64,000 nucleotides of DNA, taken from contig NZ_KV917380.1 in assembly GCF_002019765.1 (NCBI RefSeq), forward strand, positions 1,828,855 to 1,892,854. Reading direction: 5' to 3'. The notes beneath the pieces were generated by a model. It was given only the letters and a program-made list of their open reading frames with translations. It searched no databases and was not told the origin of the DNA. Of the stretch, positions 12,866-23,406 are shown piece by piece. Position numbers and translations under genes: made by a program. The DNA comes from Shouchella oshimensis. GTDB taxonomy: Bacteria > Bacillota > Bacilli > Bacillales > Bacillaceae_D. Positions within the stretch are counted from its first letter, which is position 1; each line of letters opens with the position of its first letter.

Positions 12866-12917
12866 CGAATAAATGTTCGTAAAACCTATTGGCAAACGAT
12901 GAAAAAAGAGGTATGAT
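12866..12917 (+). promoter_or_regulatory. recA promoter with LexA box
   Basis: LexA operator CGAATAAATGTTCG at 12866-12879 differs from CGAAC-N4-GTTCG at one half-site base. Downstream lie TTGGCA (12889-12894), a 17-base spacer and TATGAT (12912-12917). The operator abuts the -35, as in other Bacillus recA promoters. Confidence 0.85.
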
Positions 12918-13006: not shown

Positions 13007-14056
13007 ATGAGTGATCGGAAACAAGCGTTAGATATGGCTTTGCGCCAGATCGAAAAGCAGTTTGGTAAAGGTTCTGTCATGAAATTAGGAGAGAGAGCGG
13101 AGCAACGAATCTCAACTGTTTCAAGTGGTGCGCTAGCTTTAGATATTGCTTTAGGTGTTGGCGGCTATCCAAAAGGTAGAATCATTGAAGTCTACGGACC
13201 AGAGTCTTCTGGTAAAACGACAGTTGCTCTTCACGCTATTGCTGAAGTACAGCGTCAAGGTGGTCAAGCTGCATTTATTGATGCAGAGCACGCGTTAGAC
13301 CCCGTTTATGCTGGTAAGCTTGGTGTAAATGTAGACGAATTGCTTCTTTCTCAACCTGACACAGGGGAGCAAGCATTAGAAATTGCTGAAGCGCTTGTAC
13401 GTAGTGGTGCTCTGGATATGATCGTTATTGATAGTGTGGCTGCTCTTGTTCCAAAAGCGGAGATTGAAGGCGAAATGGGAGATTCTCACGTCGGTTTGCA
13501 AGCTCGTTTAATGTCTCAAGCGTTAAGAAAATTATCTGGTGCGATTAATAAATCGAAAACCGTAGCGGTCTTTATTAATCAGATTCGTGAAAAGGTCGGC
13601 GTGATGTTCGGTAATCCTGAAACAACACCAGGTGGTCGTGCGCTTAAGTTCTATTCTTCTGTTCGTTTAGAAGTTCGACGAGCTGAGGCACTGAAACAAG
13701 GAAACGATATAGTCGGAAACCGTACTAAAATTAAAGTTGTGAAAAACAAAGTGGCGCCTCCATTCCGTCTTGCTGAAGTGGATATTATGTATGGAGAAGG
13801 AATTTCAAGAGAGGGATCTATTCTTGATATTGCTACGGATTTAGAAATTGTTGATAAGAGTGGTGCCTGGTATTCTTACAACGGTGATCGTTTAGGTCAA
13901 GGTCGTGAGAACTCGAAACAATTCTTAAAAGAAAACGTAGAAATTACAACTGAAATCGAACGGAAAATCCGTGATGAGCACAATCTTGATGGAGAAGCAA
14001 AAGTAGAAGAAGCCGATAAAGAATCTTTTGAAGATGTTCCTCTTGATTTAAAATAA
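13007..14056 (+). CDS. recA: Recombinase RecA
   Basis: DNA-strand exchange protein and LexA co-protease; 349 residues, normal length. Walker A GPESSGKT near 64-71, the signature [14 protein letters not shown], loop residues [13 protein letters not shown] and an acidic C-terminus are visible. An AAGGAGATGG ribosome site precedes the ATG. SOS-controlled through the operator upstream and closed by a strong terminator before the Mre11-like gene. Confidence 0.98.
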
Positions 14057-14061
14057 TGATA

Positions 14062-14101
14062 GATAAAAGACTTTCCTGCTTGTTAAGGAAAGTCTTTTAT
14101 C
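14062..14101 (+). terminator. Terminator after recA
   Basis: Perfect 15-bp stem GATAAAAGACTTTCC with its complement and a 10-base loop. The T run is inside the stem arm, so it may work in both directions. Confidence 0.8.
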
Positions 14102-14160
14102 ATAATGATAGTCTTTAAACAAAGAAATAGTTTAGCAATGAAAGGAACGAAGGATATAAT

Positions 14161-15150
14161 ATGATATCATTCCTCTACTTTACTGATACCCATATACGTG
14201 GAACAACTCCGAAAAATCGTTTAGATTCGTTTCCTGATACTATTAAAGATAAAATTGATCAAGTAATGGCTTTAGCTAATGAGCATCAGGTTGATTTTTT
14301 ACTCCATGGTGGAGATGTGTTTGACCGACCTGATTTGTCTCCGAGCACAGTTGGTCAGTTTGCGCAGTTATTTAGGAAGGCTAAAGCGCCTATTTATGCA
14401 ATAGCGGGTAATCATGATACATTCGGGCATAATCCTCTAACCGTAACACGAACGATGCTGGGGCTACTTGATGCTTTTGGTATAATGACTCTTATTCACC
14501 CAGATCAACCAGTAGTAGTAGAAAAAGAGGGTGTTCGACTTCAGCTATCTGGACAGCCTTACCACTATGATCTTGATCAACGAGACCCAAAGCTGGATTA
14601 TTACCCTGTTAATGAAACGAATGCTACCTATTTGATTCACCTCGTTCATAGTATGCTCGTTGAAAGAGCGTTACCAGAAGGAGTGTCTCATACCTTAATT
14701 GATCATATTTGGGGAACAACTGCAGATGTCATTTTCACTGGACATTTTCATAGTGGATTTGGGATTAAGGAAAAAGACGGTACATTTATTTGCAACCCAG
14801 GGGCACTTGCGCGAATAAACAACCATTGGACAGAAATTGAGCGGATGCCAACTGTCATTCTTGGTGAAGTAGACAAAGCTGGAATTAGACTAAAAGAGAT
14901 TCAGCTGAAAGCACAAAAGGGTGAAGCTGTTTTAGACCGATCCTACGTCGAAAAAGCGAGTCACCAAGAGGAAAAGCTCCATGCCTTTGTTCAACAAGTG
15001 AAAGAAAAAGCAAATTTTGAAACGCTACAAATGGGTGACATTATTCGGGAAATTGCAGCTATGTCTAATGTGGAAGAAAAAGTAAGAGAAGAAGCATTAA
15101 GACGTATGACGCTTATAGAAGAGCGATGGGAGCGTGATGAAACTGAGTAA
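14161..15150 (+). CDS. Mre11/SbcD-like metallophosphoesterase nuclease
   Basis: A 329-residue calcineurin-fold protein with all five family motifs in order: DTH near residue 8, GGDVFDR near 51, GNHD near 83, an LVHSML His near 160 and GHFH near 194. These residues bind two metal ions in Mre11-type DNA nucleases. The roughly 130 C-terminal residues are helical and would form the ATPase-binding and capping part. The stop lies inside the next gene, so it is coupled to the Rad50-like ATPase half. It differs from housekeeping SbcD in being short and in sitting with a split ATPase. Exact substrate (ends, hairpins, foreign DNA) is unknown. Confidence 0.85.
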   Translation: MISFLYFTDTHIRGTTPKNRLDSFPDTIKDKIDQVMALANEHQVDFLLHGGDVFDRPDLSPSTVGQFAQLFRKAKAPIYAIAGNHDTFGHNPLTVTRTMLGLLDAFGIMTLIHPDQPVVVEKEGVRLQLSGQPYHYDLDQRDPKLDYYPVNETNATYLIHLVHSMLVERALPEGVSHTLIDHIWGTTADVIFTGHFHSGFGIKEKDGTFICNPGALARINNHWTEIERMPTVILGEVDKAGIRLKEIQLKAQKGEAVLDRSYVEKASHQEEKLHAFVQQVKEKANFETLQMGDIIREIAAMSNVEEKVREEALRRMTLIEERWERDETE

Positions 15151-16570
15151 AATGGTTTCCGTCCGGCTTGAAAATTTTCAATCTCATTTAGATACAGTAC
15201 TGTCTTTATCAAAAGGGTTAAACGTTGTTGTTGGACAATCAGATAGTGGGAAAACAGCAGTGTTGAGAGGGATTCGCTGGGCTCTTTTTAATCAACCACG
15301 AGGGACAGATTTTTTGAAAGTTGGAGCGGACTTTGTACGGGTAACAATCGAATTTGAAAACGGTCATACACTTGTACGTGAACGAACATCATCAAAAAAT
15401 CGCTACATCATTAAAAAAAAGGGTGAAGAGGATTTAGTGTTAGAAGGATTCGGTTCATCTGTGCCTGAAGAAGTCTTAAATGCTCATCAAATGAGACCGT
15501 TTCGAATCGATGCGGATCATGAGTGGCAGTTGCAAATTGCCCAACAATTAGAAGGACCGTTTCTACTAGAACAAACTGGTTCAATACGAGCAAAAACCAT
15601 TGGTCGAATGAGTGGCGCTCATTATTTAGATATGGCTATTCGTGACACATCTAAAGACGTTTCTCAGTTAACTCAAAGAGTGAAGTGGAAAGAACAAGAA
15701 TTAGAAGCAGCGGAGAAAGAGTTGGAACCATTTAAGCCTCTCGATCAAGCGAAGCAGCAGTTAGACGAAGGGTTTCGTTTGCTTGAACGAGTAAAGGATC
15801 AAGCAAAAAAGGTTCAAGAACTAAAGCGTCTGAGTGAACAGTTTAAGCAATTGAAAGGTCAAAAGAGTCAACTAGAACAAACGATTCACAAGATAAAAGA
15901 TCTCGATACATGGGAAGTGCTTTTTTTAAACTTACAGCAACTAACAGCGAAGCGCTACCAGCTTTCTTCTGTCCAAAGAGAGTGGCAACGTATCGCTAAA
16001 GACCTTTCAACCTGTCAAAAGTGGCTTACAAAAACAGAGTCCATTGAGGAGGCTGAGCTGCTAGCGAGAGCTTTAGCAAATCATGTATCTCAAACTCTTA
16101 AATTGCAACAGTTTAAGAAGAGTGAAGAATATGTAAAAGAGAGTATAACAGCATTAAACGCCCGCTTAGAGCGTACGCATTTTTTACAATCGTTTAATGA
16201 AGAACATGTAACGGATGTACGCAACAAAGTACTTAAAACCCGACAGTTACGAGAACGTTTTGAACGGCTGCAAAAAATGACTGACGAAGAGAATGCGTTA
16301 TTGAAGAAAAAGCAACGTGCACATAAGGTTCTACAAGCGTACCCGTTAACGGAAAGTGTTGCCCAAGCATTTGAACGCACTCAATTGCTTTCACGCTACC
16401 AAGAAAAAATTGTTCTTTTAAAGAAGCGTTTAGAAGAAGGGGCGGCGTTCGTAGCACATTCCAAACAACAAGAAGAAGAACAAGTTGCTCGTTATACAGA
16501 AGCATTAAACACGTTCCATCTTTGTCCCACATGTGGACAACCAATACAGCAGAAGGAGGAGTTATCATGA
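15137..16570 (+). CDS. Rad50-like ATPase, N-terminal half with zinc hook
   Basis: A 477-residue protein holding the N-terminal lobe of a Rad50/SMC ATPase. Walker A GQSDSGKT lies at about 33-40 after the LENFQSH strand, and a Q-loop region contains EGPFLLEQTGS. A coiled coil of about 280 residues follows and ends in CPTCGQP (Cys 463 and 466), the zinc-hook motif. Translation then stops, where an ordinary Rad50 would turn back. There is no ABC signature or Walker B here; these lie in the gene at 16811. GGGAG lies 4 bases before ATG 15137; a GTG at 15134 and an ATG at 15152 are alternatives. Overlaps both neighbours. Confidence 0.8.
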   Translation: MKLSKMVSVRLENFQSHLDTVLSLSKGLNVVVGQSDSGKTAVLRGIRWALFNQPRGTDFLKVGADFVRVTIEFENGHTLVRERTSSKNRYIIKKKGEEDLVLEGFGSSVPEEVLNAHQMRPFRIDADHEWQLQIAQQLEGPFLLEQTGSIRAKTIGRMSGAHYLDMAIRDTSKDVSQLTQRVKWKEQELEAAEKELEPFKPLDQAKQQLDEGFRLLERVKDQAKKVQELKRLSEQFKQLKGQKSQLEQTIHKIKDLDTWEVLFLNLQQLTAKRYQLSSVQREWQRIAKDLSTCQKWLTKTESIEEAELLARALANHVSQTLKLQQFKKSEEYVKESITALNARLERTHFLQSFNEEHVTDVRNKVLKTRQLRERFERLQKMTDEENALLKKKQRAHKVLQAYPLTESVAQAFERTQLLSRYQEKIVLLKKRLEEGAAFVAHSKQQEEEQVARYTEALNTFHLCPTCGQPIQQKEELS

Positions 16571-16818
16571 AACAAGTGGAGCAAGACTTAGATAAAATGA
16601 AGCAAGCCATTGATAAAGCAAAAGATCTGCGTTATCGAGCAGAAGCGAAACTAGAAGAATTAGAGAATCAAAAAACACGTTTGCTTGAAGAGCTAGAAGA
16701 GTTAGGTGTGAAGCCAGAAGACTTAGACGATGAAATTGTAAAGTTAGAGACAGAGATTGAGCAATCAATGGAACGGGCATGGTCGCTTATTCCGAAAGAA
16801 TTGATGGCACGTGACTAA
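16567..16818 (+). CDS. Small coiled-coil protein of the split Rad50 cassette
   Basis: An 83-residue, highly charged, almost wholly helical protein with heptad-like Leu/Glu/Lys spacing and a short break at LGVKPEDLDDE. It overlaps the N-half gene by 4 bases (ATGA) and the C-half by 8 bases, so all are made together; AAGGAGG precedes it. It has no enzyme motif. The returning coiled coil of the C-half is much shorter than that of the N-half, so this peptide may supply part of the missing strand; that is an inference from length and position. Confidence 0.7.
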   Translation: MKQVEQDLDKMKQAIDKAKDLRYRAEAKLEELENQKTRLLEELEELGVKPEDLDDEIVKLETEIEQSMERAWSLIPKELMARD

Positions 16819-17473
16819 CCATGAATCCATTGTTGCACTTGAGCGTGCATTAAGAGAGAAAAACGATCAATGGACGCGCTTAGATGAAAAGAGAAACGTT
16901 ATTCTTGAGACCATTCAGCAAGCTAAAGCGGCTTTAAACGACTATGAAGAAACCCTCGACACATATGAAAAGGCAAGAGTTCTCTTACAGCAATCAGCAG
17001 AGTATGCACGAAAGCAAGCAAAACAACAAATGGAAACATTAGTAACGAACGCACTTCAATATGTATTTGGGCCAATGATTGCTTTTGAAATTGAACTTGA
17101 AGAACACGGTAATCGAGCGGTGGCAGAAATGTTTGTTGTCTCTAATTTCGATGGTATGAAAATAAAAACGAAACCTCAAGACGCTAGAGGGGGTGGGGTT
17201 GTAGACATTGTCACTCTTGCTTTACGTGTCGCACTAATGGAAACAACTCAACCAAAGCAATCAGGTCCGATACTCTTAGATGAACCGGGGAAACATGTGT
17301 CAGGTGAATATACACATTATTTATATGAGTTTTTAAAGTCCCTTGCGACAATGTTTGATCGACAGATACTTATGATTACACACAACCATCATTTAATGGA
17401 ATCAGGAGATAAAGCATTTATCGTTACCATTCGGGATGGAATCAGCCAAGTAGAAGAAGCGACGAGCCCTTGA
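16811..17473 (+). CDS. Rad50-like ATPase, C-terminal half
   Basis: A 220-residue protein complementary to the N-half at 15137. A coiled coil of about 75 residues leads into an ATPase lobe with a degenerate ABC signature, GGGVVDIVTLALRVAL, near 125-140. Walker B ILLDEP lies near 155-158 and the switch His in ITHNHH near 190. There is no Walker A. Both halves must assemble to form a working ATP site. GTG start within the previous gene, so coupled. The Mre11-like nuclease three genes upstream is the expected partner. Confidence 0.8.
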   Translation: MTNHESIVALERALREKNDQWTRLDEKRNVILETIQQAKAALNDYEETLDTYEKARVLLQQSAEYARKQAKQQMETLVTNALQYVFGPMIAFEIELEEHGNRAVAEMFVVSNFDGMKIKTKPQDARGGGVVDIVTLALRVALMETTQPKQSGPILLDEPGKHVSGEYTHYLYEFLKSLATMFDRQILMITHNHHLMESGDKAFIVTIRDGISQVEEATSP

Positions 17474-17608
17474 CATTAAAAGATGTGAAGCGTAAAATAA
17501 TGGATGATACACAATGTATCAAGGTTGAATTTTTATGAATATATTCATTATTGATTAACAAATGTGAAACATTTAAACCAACAATTGGATAGCAAGGGAG
17601 GTGTAACG

Positions 17609-19186
17609 ATGCCAAGCATTGAATTAAATCTCTTGGTTCTAAGCCTCATTGTACTTGCTTTCTCTGTAGTTTTTGCAGTTGTTGGATATCTTGTTCGAAA
17701 ATCAATCGCTGAACGGAAAATTTCAAGTGCGGAGCAAGCAGCAAAGCAAATTATTGATGATGCGACGCGTGAAGCAGAAACGAACAAAAAAGAAGCGATT
17801 CTCGAAGTGAAAGACGAGGTTCACAAGCTAAGAAGTGATGCAGAACGCGACGTACGTGAGCGAAGAAATGAGATTCAGAAACAAGAGCATCGTTTGGTTC
17901 AAAAAGAAGAGATTCTAGATCGGAAAAGTGAAACTCTCGATAAGAAAGAAGAGTCATTAGAAAAACGGGAGGAATCTCTCGCCAAAAAACAACGACAAGT
18001 TGAAGAGATGGAAAGTAAAATGAGCCAGCTGCTGCTGGACCAAAAACAAGAATTAGAGCGGGTGTCTGGCTTAAGCCGAGAAGAAGCACGAATGATCATA
18101 CGCCAAGAAGTTGAGCAAGAAGTAGCTCAAGAATCAGCACTTCTCATTAAAGAGAAGTTAGCTGAAGCAAAAGAAACGGCGGACAAGCGATCGAAAGAAA
18201 TTCTTTCTCTCGCTATTCAACGTTGCTCAGCAGATCATGTTGCCGAAACAACAGTTTCAGTAGTGAATTTGCCGAACGACGAAATGAAAGGCCGCATTAT
18301 CGGACGCGAAGGTCGTAACATTCGAGCTCTTGAGACGTTAACGGGTATTGATTTAATTATTGATGATACACCGGAAGCGGTTATTCTTTCTGGCTTTGAT
18401 CCAATTCGTCGTGAAATTGCACGATCTGCGTTAGAGAAGCTTGTGCAAGACGGTCGAATTCATCCAGCTCGAATTGAAGAAATGGTCGATAAATCAAGAA
18501 GAGAAGTCGATGAAACGATTCGCGAATATGGGGAACAAACAACATTTGAAGTAGGCGTTCATGGTCTTCATCCTGATTTAATAAAGATTTTAGGTCGACT
18601 TCGTTTCCGCACAAGCTATGGTCAAAATGTCTTAAAACATTCAATGGAAGTCGCTCATTTAACCGGCTTAATGGCCGCTGAACTTGGTGAGGATGTTAAA
18701 TTAGCGAAGCGTGCTGGTTTATTGCACGACATTGGGAAAGCTATTGATCATGAAGTGGAAGGAAGCCATGTTGAAATTGGTGTTGAGCTTGGAACGAAGT
18801 ACAAGGAGCATCCAGTTGTGATCAACGCGATTGCTTCCCACCACGGCGATGTAGAAGCGACATCCATTATTTCTACGCTTGTTGCAGCAGCAGATGCATT
18901 GTCAGCTGCTCGACCTGGCGCTAGACGCGAAACCCTTGAAACATATATTCGAAGATTAGAGAAGCTAGAAGAGATCTCTGAATCATTCGATGGTGTTGAG
19001 AAGACGTTTGCCATCCAAGCCGGTCGAGAGGTACGCATTATGGTAAGACCTGATGTGGTGGATGACGCGCTAGCTCACAGTCTTGCTAGGGACATTACGA
19101 AGAAGATTGAGCAAGAGCTAGATTATCCAGGACACATTCGTGTGACTGTCATTCGTGAAACTCGCGCAGTTGAATATGCTAAATAA
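17609..19186 (+). CDS. rny: Ribonuclease Y
   Basis: Membrane-anchored endoribonuclease that starts bulk mRNA decay. The 525-residue protein has one N-terminal membrane helix, a long charged coiled coil (about 35-200), a KH domain with [15 protein letters not shown], and an HD domain with [10 protein letters not shown] near 372. ATG 17609 has GGGAGGTG upstream and gives the normal N-terminus; 15 codons further upstream in frame are leader sequence. In B. subtilis it lies just after recA/pbpX; here the split Rad50 cassette separates them. Confidence 0.96.
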
Positions 19187-21424: not shown

Positions 21425-22987
21425 ATGTCTGATCAAAAGAAGGCGAAAGATTACAGCCATTACTTTGATTTTAGTGATGCACGGATTATATCAGAAGATG
21501 ATGAAAAAAAGGTAGTTAAAATAAAAGGTAGAGACATTACAATTTATGATCAACCGAACTATCGCTCTGGTCGTAAACGAAAGCGTGAAGAGGTTCAAGT
21601 GATTCGACCGGATCACATTGTGCCATCTGAGTTGGCGAATCTCGGAAAAGGGAAGAAATTTCTGATTCGTACATACGGTTGCCAAATGAATGTACACGAT
21701 TCAGAGAATATGTCAGGAATGCTGTTGGAAATGGGCTTTGAAGAGACAACTGAAACGAGTGAAGCGGATGTTATTCTTCTTAACACATGTGCCATTCGTG
21801 AGAACGCTGAAAATAAAGTGTTTGGAGAGATTGGTCATTTAAAGCCGTTAAAATTAGAGAAACCTGAGCTTATAATTGGTGTTTGTGGTTGTATGTCACA
21901 AGAAGAATCGGTTGTCAGTCGCATTCTTCAGAAACATCAGCACATTGATTTGATTTTTGGTACGCATAACATTCACCGCTTGCCTACTCTTCTACAAGGA
22001 GCCATTTTTGGAAAAGAAATGGTCGTTGAAGTATGGTCAAAAGAAGGCGACGTTGTGGAAAATATGCCGCGAAAACGGCAAAATAAAACGCAAGCTTGGG
22101 TAAACATTATGTACGGGTGCGATAAATTTTGTACGTACTGTATTGTGCCTTATACACGAGGAAAAGAACGAAGTCGTTTGCCAGAGGATATTATAAACGA
22201 AGTACGTGACTTAGCTCGCCAAGGATACAAAGAAGTAACATTACTAGGACAAAACGTGAACGCTTACGGCAAAGATCTTCCTGGTGACTACGGTGGTCTT
22301 GGAGAACTAATGGATGCGATCCATAAAATCGATATACCTCGGGTTCGGTTTACGACAAGCCATCCAAGAGACTTTGACGATCATTTAATTGAGGTTTTAG
22401 CTCAAGGTGGAAACTTAGTTGAACACATTCACCTACCAGTTCAACACGGCAATACAGAGATTTTAAAACTAATGGGAAGGAAGTACTCACGAGAGCAATA
22501 TGTGACCCTGGCAAGCAAAATTAAAAAAGCCATTCCGAATGCTTCGTTCACAACAGATTTAATTGTTGGGTTCCCAAATGAAACAGACGAACAATTTGAG
22601 GACATGCTGACATTAGTCGAAGAGATGCAGTTTGATGCAGCCTTTACGTATATTTATTCTCCTCGTGAAGGTACGCCTGCTGCACGAATGGAAGATAATG
22701 TACCGATGGAAACGAAAAAGAAACGTCTCGCGCGTTTAAATGCCCTTGTAAACAGCATATCTGAGAAACGAAACTTAGATTATCAAGATCAAGTAGTTGA
22801 AGTTCTTGTAGAGGGCGAAAGTAAGAAAAACCCTGATGTATTAGCTGGAAGAACGCGAACAAATCGATTAGTAAACTTTGTTGGTCCTAAATCTGTTATT
22901 GGTGAGATTGTCTATATTCAAGTAACAGAGGCTAAAACATGGTCTCTTAATGGAAAAATGATTGAAACAGCGGAGGTGCGTGTGTAA
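21425..22987 (+). CDS. miaB: tRNA methylthiotransferase MiaB
   Basis: Radical-SAM enzyme that adds a methylthio group to i6A37 of tRNA. The 520-residue protein has an N-terminal extension, the UPF0004 domain ([26 protein letters not shown]), the radical-SAM motif CDKFCTYC and a C-terminal TRAM domain. ATG 21425 is preceded by AAAGGAG. It makes its product from i6A formed by MiaA, encoded at 29551. Its stop overlaps ricA by one base. Confidence 0.96.
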
Positions 22988-23406
22988 TGAGCACACTGTA
23001 TACACGAAAAGACATTCGGGAAAAAGCAAAAGAACTGGCAACGATGCTTGCACAAACAGAAGAGGTTGATTTCTTTAAACGAGCAGAAAAGAAAATCAAT
23101 GAGCATTTGCGTGTGCAAGAAATGATCGCTGAGATTAAAAAGCACCAAAAGGAAGCTGTTAATTTACGTCATTACGGTAAATTAGAAGCAATGAAAGAAG
23201 TAGAAGCAAAAATTGATGAGCTTCACAATCAAATTGATGAAATTCCGCTCGTTCAAGAATTTAAACGTAGCCAAATTGAAGTAAATGAACTACTACAAGT
23301 GATAACCAACACCGTTTCCAAACGTGTGACAGATGAGATTGTTCGTTCAATGGACGGAGATGTTATGCGTGGCACAACGACGAAAAGCCCCTTTCATCAG
23401 TGCTAA
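22987..23406 (+). CDS. ricA: RicA (YmcA), Ric complex subunit
   Basis: A 139-residue helical protein with the YmcA/YlbF fold, part of the RicA-RicF-RicT complex that directs RNase Y processing and affects sporulation, biofilm and competence. It has a single Cys, the very last residue (SPFHQC), of interest because the complex carries Fe-S clusters. Overlaps miaB (TAATG). Its partner rny lies 4 kb upstream. Confidence 0.93.
   Translation: MSTLYTRKDIREKAKELATMLAQTEEVDFFKRAEKKINEHLRVQEMIAEIKKHQKEAVNLRHYGKLEAMKEVEAKIDELHNQIDEIPLVQEFKRSQIEVNELLQVITNTVSKRVTDEIVRSMDGDVMRGTTTKSPFHQC

Follow-up and report, generated by a model that had tools for sequence, protein, structure and literature searches.

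A putative Mre11-Rad50 nuclease with a three-chain Rad50 encoded beside recA in Shouchella oshimensis, and its co-occurrence with NurA-HerA in Bacillota

A four-gene cassette beside recA in Shouchella oshimensis appears to encode a host Mre11-Rad50 nuclease for DNA-end processing in which Rad50 is divided among three chains, a reading to which sequence comparison lends a probability of roughly 0.7. The cassette lies in a window of 64,000 nucleotides (the whole stretch of DNA analyzed; contig NZ_KV917380.1, positions 1,828,855 to 1,892,854 of the forward strand) and consists of four same-strand open reading frames (ORFs), termed A, B, C, and D, at positions 14161-17473 between recA and rny, with successive overlaps of 14, 4, and 8 nucleotides. 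The initial annotation had recognized such an overlapping quartet at this place; all four ORFs are present, and the quartet recurs elsewhere. Gene content, conservation, co-occurrence with other genes, near exclusion of SbcD, gene order, and natural fusions are observed, and from these the assembly and activity of the machine and its hand-off to HerA-NurA are extrapolated. Mre11-Rad50 nucleases, NurA-HerA, and Mre11/Rad50 fusions are already known; the co-occurrence of NurA-HerA with the cassette is what this analysis adds. No description of a three-chain or split Rad50, or of this Bacillota operon, was found in the titles and abstracts of open-licence literature, from which absence in print is not claimed.

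Gene A (14161-15150, forward strand) encodes a 329-amino acid Mre11-like metallophosphoesterase nuclease, recognized by the Metallophos model of Pfam (1.1e-13), by Mre11 and SbcD models, and by solved structures of Mre11. The metal positions D9, H11, D52, D55, N84, H85, H163, H195, and H197 are kept in 137-143 of 143 aligned rows, and seven of them that represent the Mre11-type phosphodiesterase motif (D9, H11, D52, N84, H163, H195, and H197) in 140-143 of 143.

Gene B (15137-16570, forward strand) encodes a Rad50-like N-terminal half of 477 amino acids, counted from its ATG, with the Walker A motif, the Q-loop, and a long arm. It matches AAA_23 in Pfam (2.8e-16), PHROG 16465 over nearly its full length (1.3e-62), and, around Walker A, solved chains that hold only the N-half of Rad50; its best NCBIfam model is the archaeal Rad50. 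The Walker A lysine is present in 142 of 143 aligned rows, the remaining row having a gap. The start of B is given in the ORF listing as an upstream GTG (15134), and the related loci L031-L033 and L035-L040 show an ATG at the place of 15137. The arm ends in a zinc-hook-like CPTC motif at residues 463-466 (16523-16534), after which 11 residues remain to the C-terminus. The hook cysteines are nearly invariant: of 143 rows, 141 have C463 and 140 have C466, and the losses are confined to three fused genes that are described below. A long arm with a CPxC hook was found in 98 of 101 loci, which are not independent, as the named set among them overlaps the class and phylum samples.

Gene D (16811-17473, forward strand; GTG start) encodes the corresponding Rad50-like C-terminal half of 220 amino acids, made up of an N-terminal helix, an RGGG signature, a Walker B motif (LLDEP), a GKHVS segment, and the switch histidine. 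It matches PHROG 15167 (4.5e-60) and chains that contain only the C-half of Rad50 (1us8_B, 1ii8_B, and 1f2t_B), as well as SMC C-halves, and its best NCBIfam model is again the archaeal Rad50. The Walker B DE pair and the switch histidine are present in 144 of 144 aligned rows, so that the Rad50 ATPase motifs, namely Walker A, Q-loop, Walker B, and switch histidine, are all found, divided between B and D. The signature of Rad50 is canonically SGG; that of D is RGGG, and it is itself conserved (R in 137 and GGG in 144 of 144 rows). Between the two halves, gene C (16567-16818, forward strand) encodes an 83-amino acid helical protein that contains a conserved turn, GVxPE, and carries LIPKEL as a C-terminal motif. 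It matches PHROG 18563 (2e-9), and no Pfam model reached its cut-off for C among the matches listed (25 models). The alignments thereby bear out what had been read from the window by itself: an Mre11-like nuclease with metal motifs, an ATPase half with Walker A and an arm that stops just past a CPTC hook, and an ATPase half with a degenerate signature, Walker B, and switch histidine.

The reality of the split relies on comparison across 144 loci, of which 36 come from the family of the window, 48 from the class, and 60 from the phylum, each genome being placed in one set and two loci coming from one genome (G734); A and B could be aligned in 143 rows and D in 144. Within the family, D was found as a strong match (E <= 1e-90) in 36/36 genomes, with one strong copy at one locus, whereas the other families of the order yielded only weak matches (<= 24 bits) in 3/24 genomes. 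The order A-B-C-D and the downstream rny are kept at all 36 family loci, and recA lies upstream at 35, the window included; the sole locus without a visible recA (L061) begins at A on a contig edge, and one draft (L035) has a truncated A. By profile search, D is present in 50/398 genomes of the class sample and 65/398 of the phylum sample. All 48 class loci fetched outside the family have the four genes, 35 of them at recA-rny. The phylum search gave 68 matching positions beyond the own genome, of which 60 were fetched; 56 of these have four genes, three have A, B, and D fused, and a single 4-kb contig carries just D. Of the 60, 23 lie at recA-rny. The named carriers include Shouchella, Halalkalibacter, Alkalihalophilus, Alkalicoccobacillus and kin, Salsuginibacillus, and Fuchsiella, and several further carrier genera presumably belong to the Thermoactinomycetaceae.

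An artefact of sequencing, in which a frameshift breaks one Rad50 gene into pieces, deserves next to no credence. Across many assemblies, 140/144 loci, the window included, keep B, C, and D as distinct genes with short overlaps or gaps and start codons of their own, and neither a B-C nor a C-D fusion occurs among the loci examined; the locus comparison thus refutes an artefact or a pseudogene. Nothing in the window supports such an origin, and its only favorable observation is a premature end to the frame of B in the drafts of Halalkalibacter akibai JCM 9157 (L092) and Bacillus sp. JCM 19034 (L096). The ratio of nonsynonymous to synonymous substitution rates (dN/dS) relative to a close relative (L031) is 0.022 for A, 0.123 for B, 0.076 for C, and 0.047 for D; relative to a second one (L033) it is 0.036 for D, with A, B, and C saturated. 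Two checks raised by the initial annotation, on a conserved neighborhood of all four genes and on the joint presence of both ATPase halves, come out in its favor: the quartet occurs in 140/144 loci, with recA and rny as flanks in the family, and the halves are found together at every locus except the 4-kb contig.

Natural fusions support the proposal, also made at the outset, that the ATPase halves are parts of one Mre11-Rad50 machine. A and B are fused at L199 and in the viral contigs L117, L118, and L120, and three loci of one Bacillota family (f120; L278, L279, and L280) join A, the head of B, and D in a single ORF of ~700 amino acids. In these three, C was not detected and the hook cysteines are absent; the translation of L279 shows that the arm is nearly gone, and the gene that follows the fusion is addB. 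The three nest among split forms in a tree of A and D (support 0.97), for which reason the fusion looks derived. In the viral contig L118, C and D follow the A-B fusion as separate downstream genes. This contig may be Bacillus phage 0305phi8-36; it had no match in the phage collection. Mre11/Rad50 fusion proteins from that phage and from Anaerostipes, in which one P-loop segment was not observed, are described by Yoshida et al. (2011; PMC3175470), and the cassette A-B and A-B-D fusions likewise join nuclease to ATPase in the same order. If L118 were 0305phi8-36, D would be the P-loop segment missing in Yoshida et al.

The arm of B varies in a stepwise manner. Measured by alignment, its span between the PFLL motif and the hook cysteine is 322 residues in all 36 family members, and 131 of 140 loci fall within three residues of 275, 322, or 369, that is, in steps of ~47, although these classes were chosen after the histogram had been seen. 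An internal repeat in the arm gives a modest signal, with lags of 142 and 47 ranking first and second of 145 (2.9 and 2.5 standard deviations). The C-D side, measured in codons between two anchors, remains nearly constant, with medians of 91.7 in the 322 class, 92.7 in the 275 class, and 92.7 in the 369 class (anchors usable in 84/102, 19/24, and 14/14 loci, respectively); a few outliers reach 100-196 codons against the usual 85-96. In most loci, neither C nor D shows anything that answers to the extra ~47-residue modules of B, and hence C and D do not amount to a simple returning strand. We infer that self-contained helical modules make up at least part of the arm of B, and that only a fixed portion of this arm pairs with C and the N-terminal helix of D. 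The initial annotation had placed the cut where Rad50 turns back; B does end just past the hook, but the picture needs modification, as C and D form no simple return strand and the arm of B varies mostly on its own.

The mechanism suggested by these parts follows established Mre11-Rad50 biology in its head, clamp, hook, and resection steps. B, with Walker A and the Q-loop, and D, with the signature, Walker B, and the switch histidine, would form one ABC-ATPase head. On binding ATP, two such heads may clamp a DNA end that is broken or hairpinned and bring the A dimer into place, which would cut the DNA. The CPTC ends of B would form a zinc hook that joins two arms, and C would pair with the arm or brace it close to this hook. 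Once cleaned, the end could pass to the HerA-NurA translocase-nuclease, encoded elsewhere in the genome, for resection of the 5' strand before RecA loading.

The link with NurA-HerA is evident from presence and absence across genomes. NurA was found in 36/36 genomes of the family versus 0/24 cassette-free genomes of the order, Bacillus subtilis being among the controls without a NurA match. A further 80 genomes, hand-picked from the class and phylum lists and spread over families, gave NurA in 39/40 carriers of the cassette (35 of the 40 with the cassette at recA) versus 0/40 non-carriers; the 40 were drawn from 71 eligible cassette genomes (48 of the class and 23 of the phylum at recA), with G231 and G248, whose copies are phage-like and plasmid ones, not among them. 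Counted by family, as tested, NurA is present in 15/16 families with the cassette versus 0/45 without. The two systems also adjoin in many genomes: nurA followed by herA lies just upstream of the cassette on the same strand at 26/60 phylum loci and 3/48 class loci. A gap of ~1.5 kb separates the NurA and HerA genes at L254, HerA alone is the neighbor at five further class loci (upstream at four and downstream at L199), and at one of these four, L190 (genome G207), NurA lies just past the fetched stretch. Pfam confirmed six NurA/HerA examples and one AddB. Where the cassette is at recA, NurA is encoded elsewhere in the genome. In the own genome, herA (63,328-65,157; PF01935, 3.2e-14) adjoins nurA (65,175-66,125; PF09376, 3e-35) without linkage to the cassette, flanked by a methionine-tRNA ligase gene and, past a 93-amino acid ORF, by a 16S rRNA methyltransferase gene.

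This arrangement resembles one known from archaea. According to a review (PMC8708640), archaeal nurA-herA usually share one operon with mre11-rad50. It adds that bacterial NurA/HerA homologs occur in Firmicutes and elsewhere, but that Deinococcus radiodurans is the only bacterium in which they have been studied, and that there they do not cluster with mre11-rad50. Judged by that account, nurA-herA placed before A-B-C-D in Bacillota is the archaeal arrangement. The likeness to the archaeal NurA-HerA-Mre11-Rad50 operon (Constantinesco et al. 2002, 2004, as cited in PMC8708640) extends to the four activities, which are expected to be the same, to the upstream nurA-herA order at the 26 phylum loci, and to the archaeal Rad50 models that best fit B and D. 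In contrast with that operon, the cassette is bacterial, has its Rad50 in three chains, and carries RGGG for SGG, and the family of the window keeps nurA-herA and the cassette at separate loci.

The relation to SbcCD is one of near exclusion. SbcD above its curated cut-off occurs in 4/36 family genomes versus 20/24 other genomes of the order, in 4/50 cassette genomes of the class versus 282/348 others, and in 2/65 cassette genomes of the phylum versus 158/333 others. The exceptions in class and phylum are six (G231, G544, G821, G248, G014, and G093); G231, G544, and G821 have the gene order B-C-D-A, as is also seen in phages, and the copy in G248 is probably on a plasmid, its contig being equal in length to an Aneurinibacillus plasmid that has a D match at the same position. 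The cassette shares with bacterial SbcCD an Mre11-like nuclease and a Rad50-like ATPase with a zinc hook, but A falls below the SbcD cut-off (TIGR00619; 33.1 versus 77.65 bits) and B has no match to the SbcC model TIGR00618 at E <= 1, the staphylococcal SbcC model matching only weakly, in the arm (1.2e-4). SbcC is one long chain, unlike the three chains B-C-D. A search of the own genome for a normal SbcC, raised as a check by the initial annotation, gave no match to TIGR00618 above cut-off, nor is any cassette gene among the matches to that model. The best Rad50-like match outside the cassette is RecN, and a PF13476 match at 1594373 (L001), considered as an SbcC candidate, was rejected because it is RecN. 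Thus the cassette seems to take the place of SbcCD in most of these bacteria, largely though not strictly. The sets of end-processing genes may vary in this group: AddA is strongly matched in the own genome, although Rocha et al. (2005; PMC1193525) give Bacillus halodurans, a relative, RecBCD rather than AddAB.

The near exclusion of SbcD would also be expected if the cassette were a plain equivalent of SbcCD, limited to opening hairpins, cutting palindromes, and cleaning blocked ends, the link with NurA-HerA then reflecting shared ancestry of a gene block without any hand-off. The distance between nurA-herA and the cassette in the family of the window agrees with this alternative, as does the position of the fused form next to addB, since B. 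subtilis keeps sbcDC beside addB. Nonetheless, no NurA was found in the cassette-free genomes tested (0/24 and 0/40), and NurA accompanies the cassette even when their genes lie apart (36/36 and 39/40), a pattern for which common descent of a gene block is a poorer explanation; the alternative is therefore considered fairly unlikely.

Copies on phages and plasmids raise the question of origin. Bacillus phage vB_BboS-125 carries the four genes in the order B-C-D-A, with an AP2-domain gene between B and C and with A at some distance from D; genes for a Holliday-junction resolvase and for a UvsW-type helicase lie nearby. Its A gene (L029:9247-10224; NC_048735.1, about 22423-23394), with 37% identity to A over 98%, has no annotated feature. 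Four of five viral loci have all four genes, and one is without a detectable C. Phage and plasmid copies carry annotations such as 'exonuclease', 'hypothetical protein', or 'chromosome partitioning protein ParA', and the near full-length PHROG matches of B, C, and D (16465, 18563, and 15167) are named 'exonuclease', unknown, and 'ATPase', in contrast to the cassette three separate families, none of which is named as part of one Rad50. The T4 gp46/gp47 proteins are a phage Mre11/Rad50 pair used in recombination, gp46 being one chain; nucleases of this type resemble the cassette at a distance, the SbcC-like phrog_77 weakly matching B and D and the SbcD-like phrog_100 weakly matching A.

A single capture by the host of domesticated phage recombination genes would account for these PHROG families, whose matches to B, C, and D cover most of each protein, and for the whole set in vB_BboS-125. 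In the tree of A and D, however, ten phage, plasmid, or phage-like copies (four of them classed as phage-like by gene order alone) group apart from the clade of the window under midpoint rooting, with a support of 0.87; the next node has a support of only 0.41. The tree leaves out loci without A or D and identical rows, and takes in 13 of the 48 named loci. In addition, the frequency of D in class and phylum genomes contrasts with its presence in 4 of 50,697 phage records, a count from a single-protein search that is less sensitive than the profile search. Capture from phages is accordingly regarded as very unlikely. Two other phage records hold partial sets. Microbacterium phage Magritte (OR553905.1) encodes a B-like half, gp155 (93826-94335, in L030), far from a D-like half, gp2 (335-925), and the unannotated record of a 485-kb uncultured phage (LR745208.1) has B-like and A-like stretches ~3 kb apart at about 450.6-455.8 kb. 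No mention of these genes was found in the available part of a paper on Lake Elmenteita phages (PMC6375668).

The function proposed by the initial annotation was DNA-end repair or defence against foreign DNA. The former is favored by recA, nurA-herA, or addB as neighbors and by the near exclusion of SbcD. An anti-phage or anti-plasmid system is suggested only by PADLOC results in which B and D weakly match ATPases from Lamassu, Gabija, Septu, and similar systems. These matches are of a generic ATPase kind, neither strong nor accompanied by a patchy distribution, whereas the cassette is universal in the family at one housekeeping locus (36/36) and is under purifying selection. Defence was rejected as the principal explanation and is held to be extremely unlikely.

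Several observations weigh against an Mre11-Rad50 end-processing nuclease that works with NurA-HerA. Co-occurrence alone is no proof of physical partnership, and the Fisher p-values attached to the genome comparisons ignore relatedness and are descriptive only, phylogenetically structured samples overstating independence. Replacement of SbcCD is not strict, as four family genomes (G014, G017, G025, and G034) keep SbcD together with the cassette and NurA. One genome (G093) has the cassette and SbcD with no detectable NurA, while in two members of its family, G206 and G226, nurA-herA adjoin the cassette. AddA is encoded in the own genome (G000:C1:3331942-3335556; 1244.6 bits), so resection is not left to the cassette alone. 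Among the proteins, A is equally near the archaeal and bacterial models (Mre11_Sulfo 33.8 bits, sbcd 33.1 bits; NCBIfam), which makes its archaeal affinity weak and sets the cassette apart from the archaeal operon. The top solved-structure match of D is an SMC protein rather than Rad50, and with arginine in place of the signature serine, ATP hydrolysis might differ. Finally, the combined C and D side is much shorter than the arm of B and does not track its changes in length.

The cassette is preceded by recA (13007-14056, forward strand) and followed by rny, encoding RNase Y (17564-19186, forward strand), both recognized as ORFs. A terminator-like hairpin of 16 pairs lies between recA and the cassette (14062-14101); it comes from a consensus scan that gave 4 sites versus 3.2 expected from shuffles and is only suggestive. 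A promoter candidate (TTAGCA/TATAAT, 14132-14160) was discarded because the pair ends at the start codon of A, and the promoter scan gave 12 sites versus 10.1 expected. No indication of SOS control of the cassette was obtained, as the sole LexA-like match near A (14210, two mismatches) falls inside the gene; the LexA-box scan as a whole gave 93 matches versus 96.6 in shuffles, no excess over chance. A LexA-like box with one mismatch is located at 12866-12879, about 130 bases before recA.

Beyond the single cassette, the odds stand slightly on the side of a broader picture, in which a large part of Bacillota would use an archaeal-like NurA-HerA-Mre11-Rad50 set in place of SbcCD, with a three-protein Rad50, arm modules of ~47 residues with a fixed return side, and one lineage that has re-fused the parts into a hookless, nearly armless chain of ~700 residues. 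How the ATP cycle of the Rad50 head is communicated to a hook some 300 residues away is debated, and the three-chain Rad50, the hookless fusion, and the seemingly modular arm provide natural tools for that question without protein engineering. Given how closely the cassette is linked to NurA-HerA and how nearly it excludes SbcD, an archaeal-style resection set would be common in Bacillota too, and the assignment of DNA-break repair in these genomes would change.

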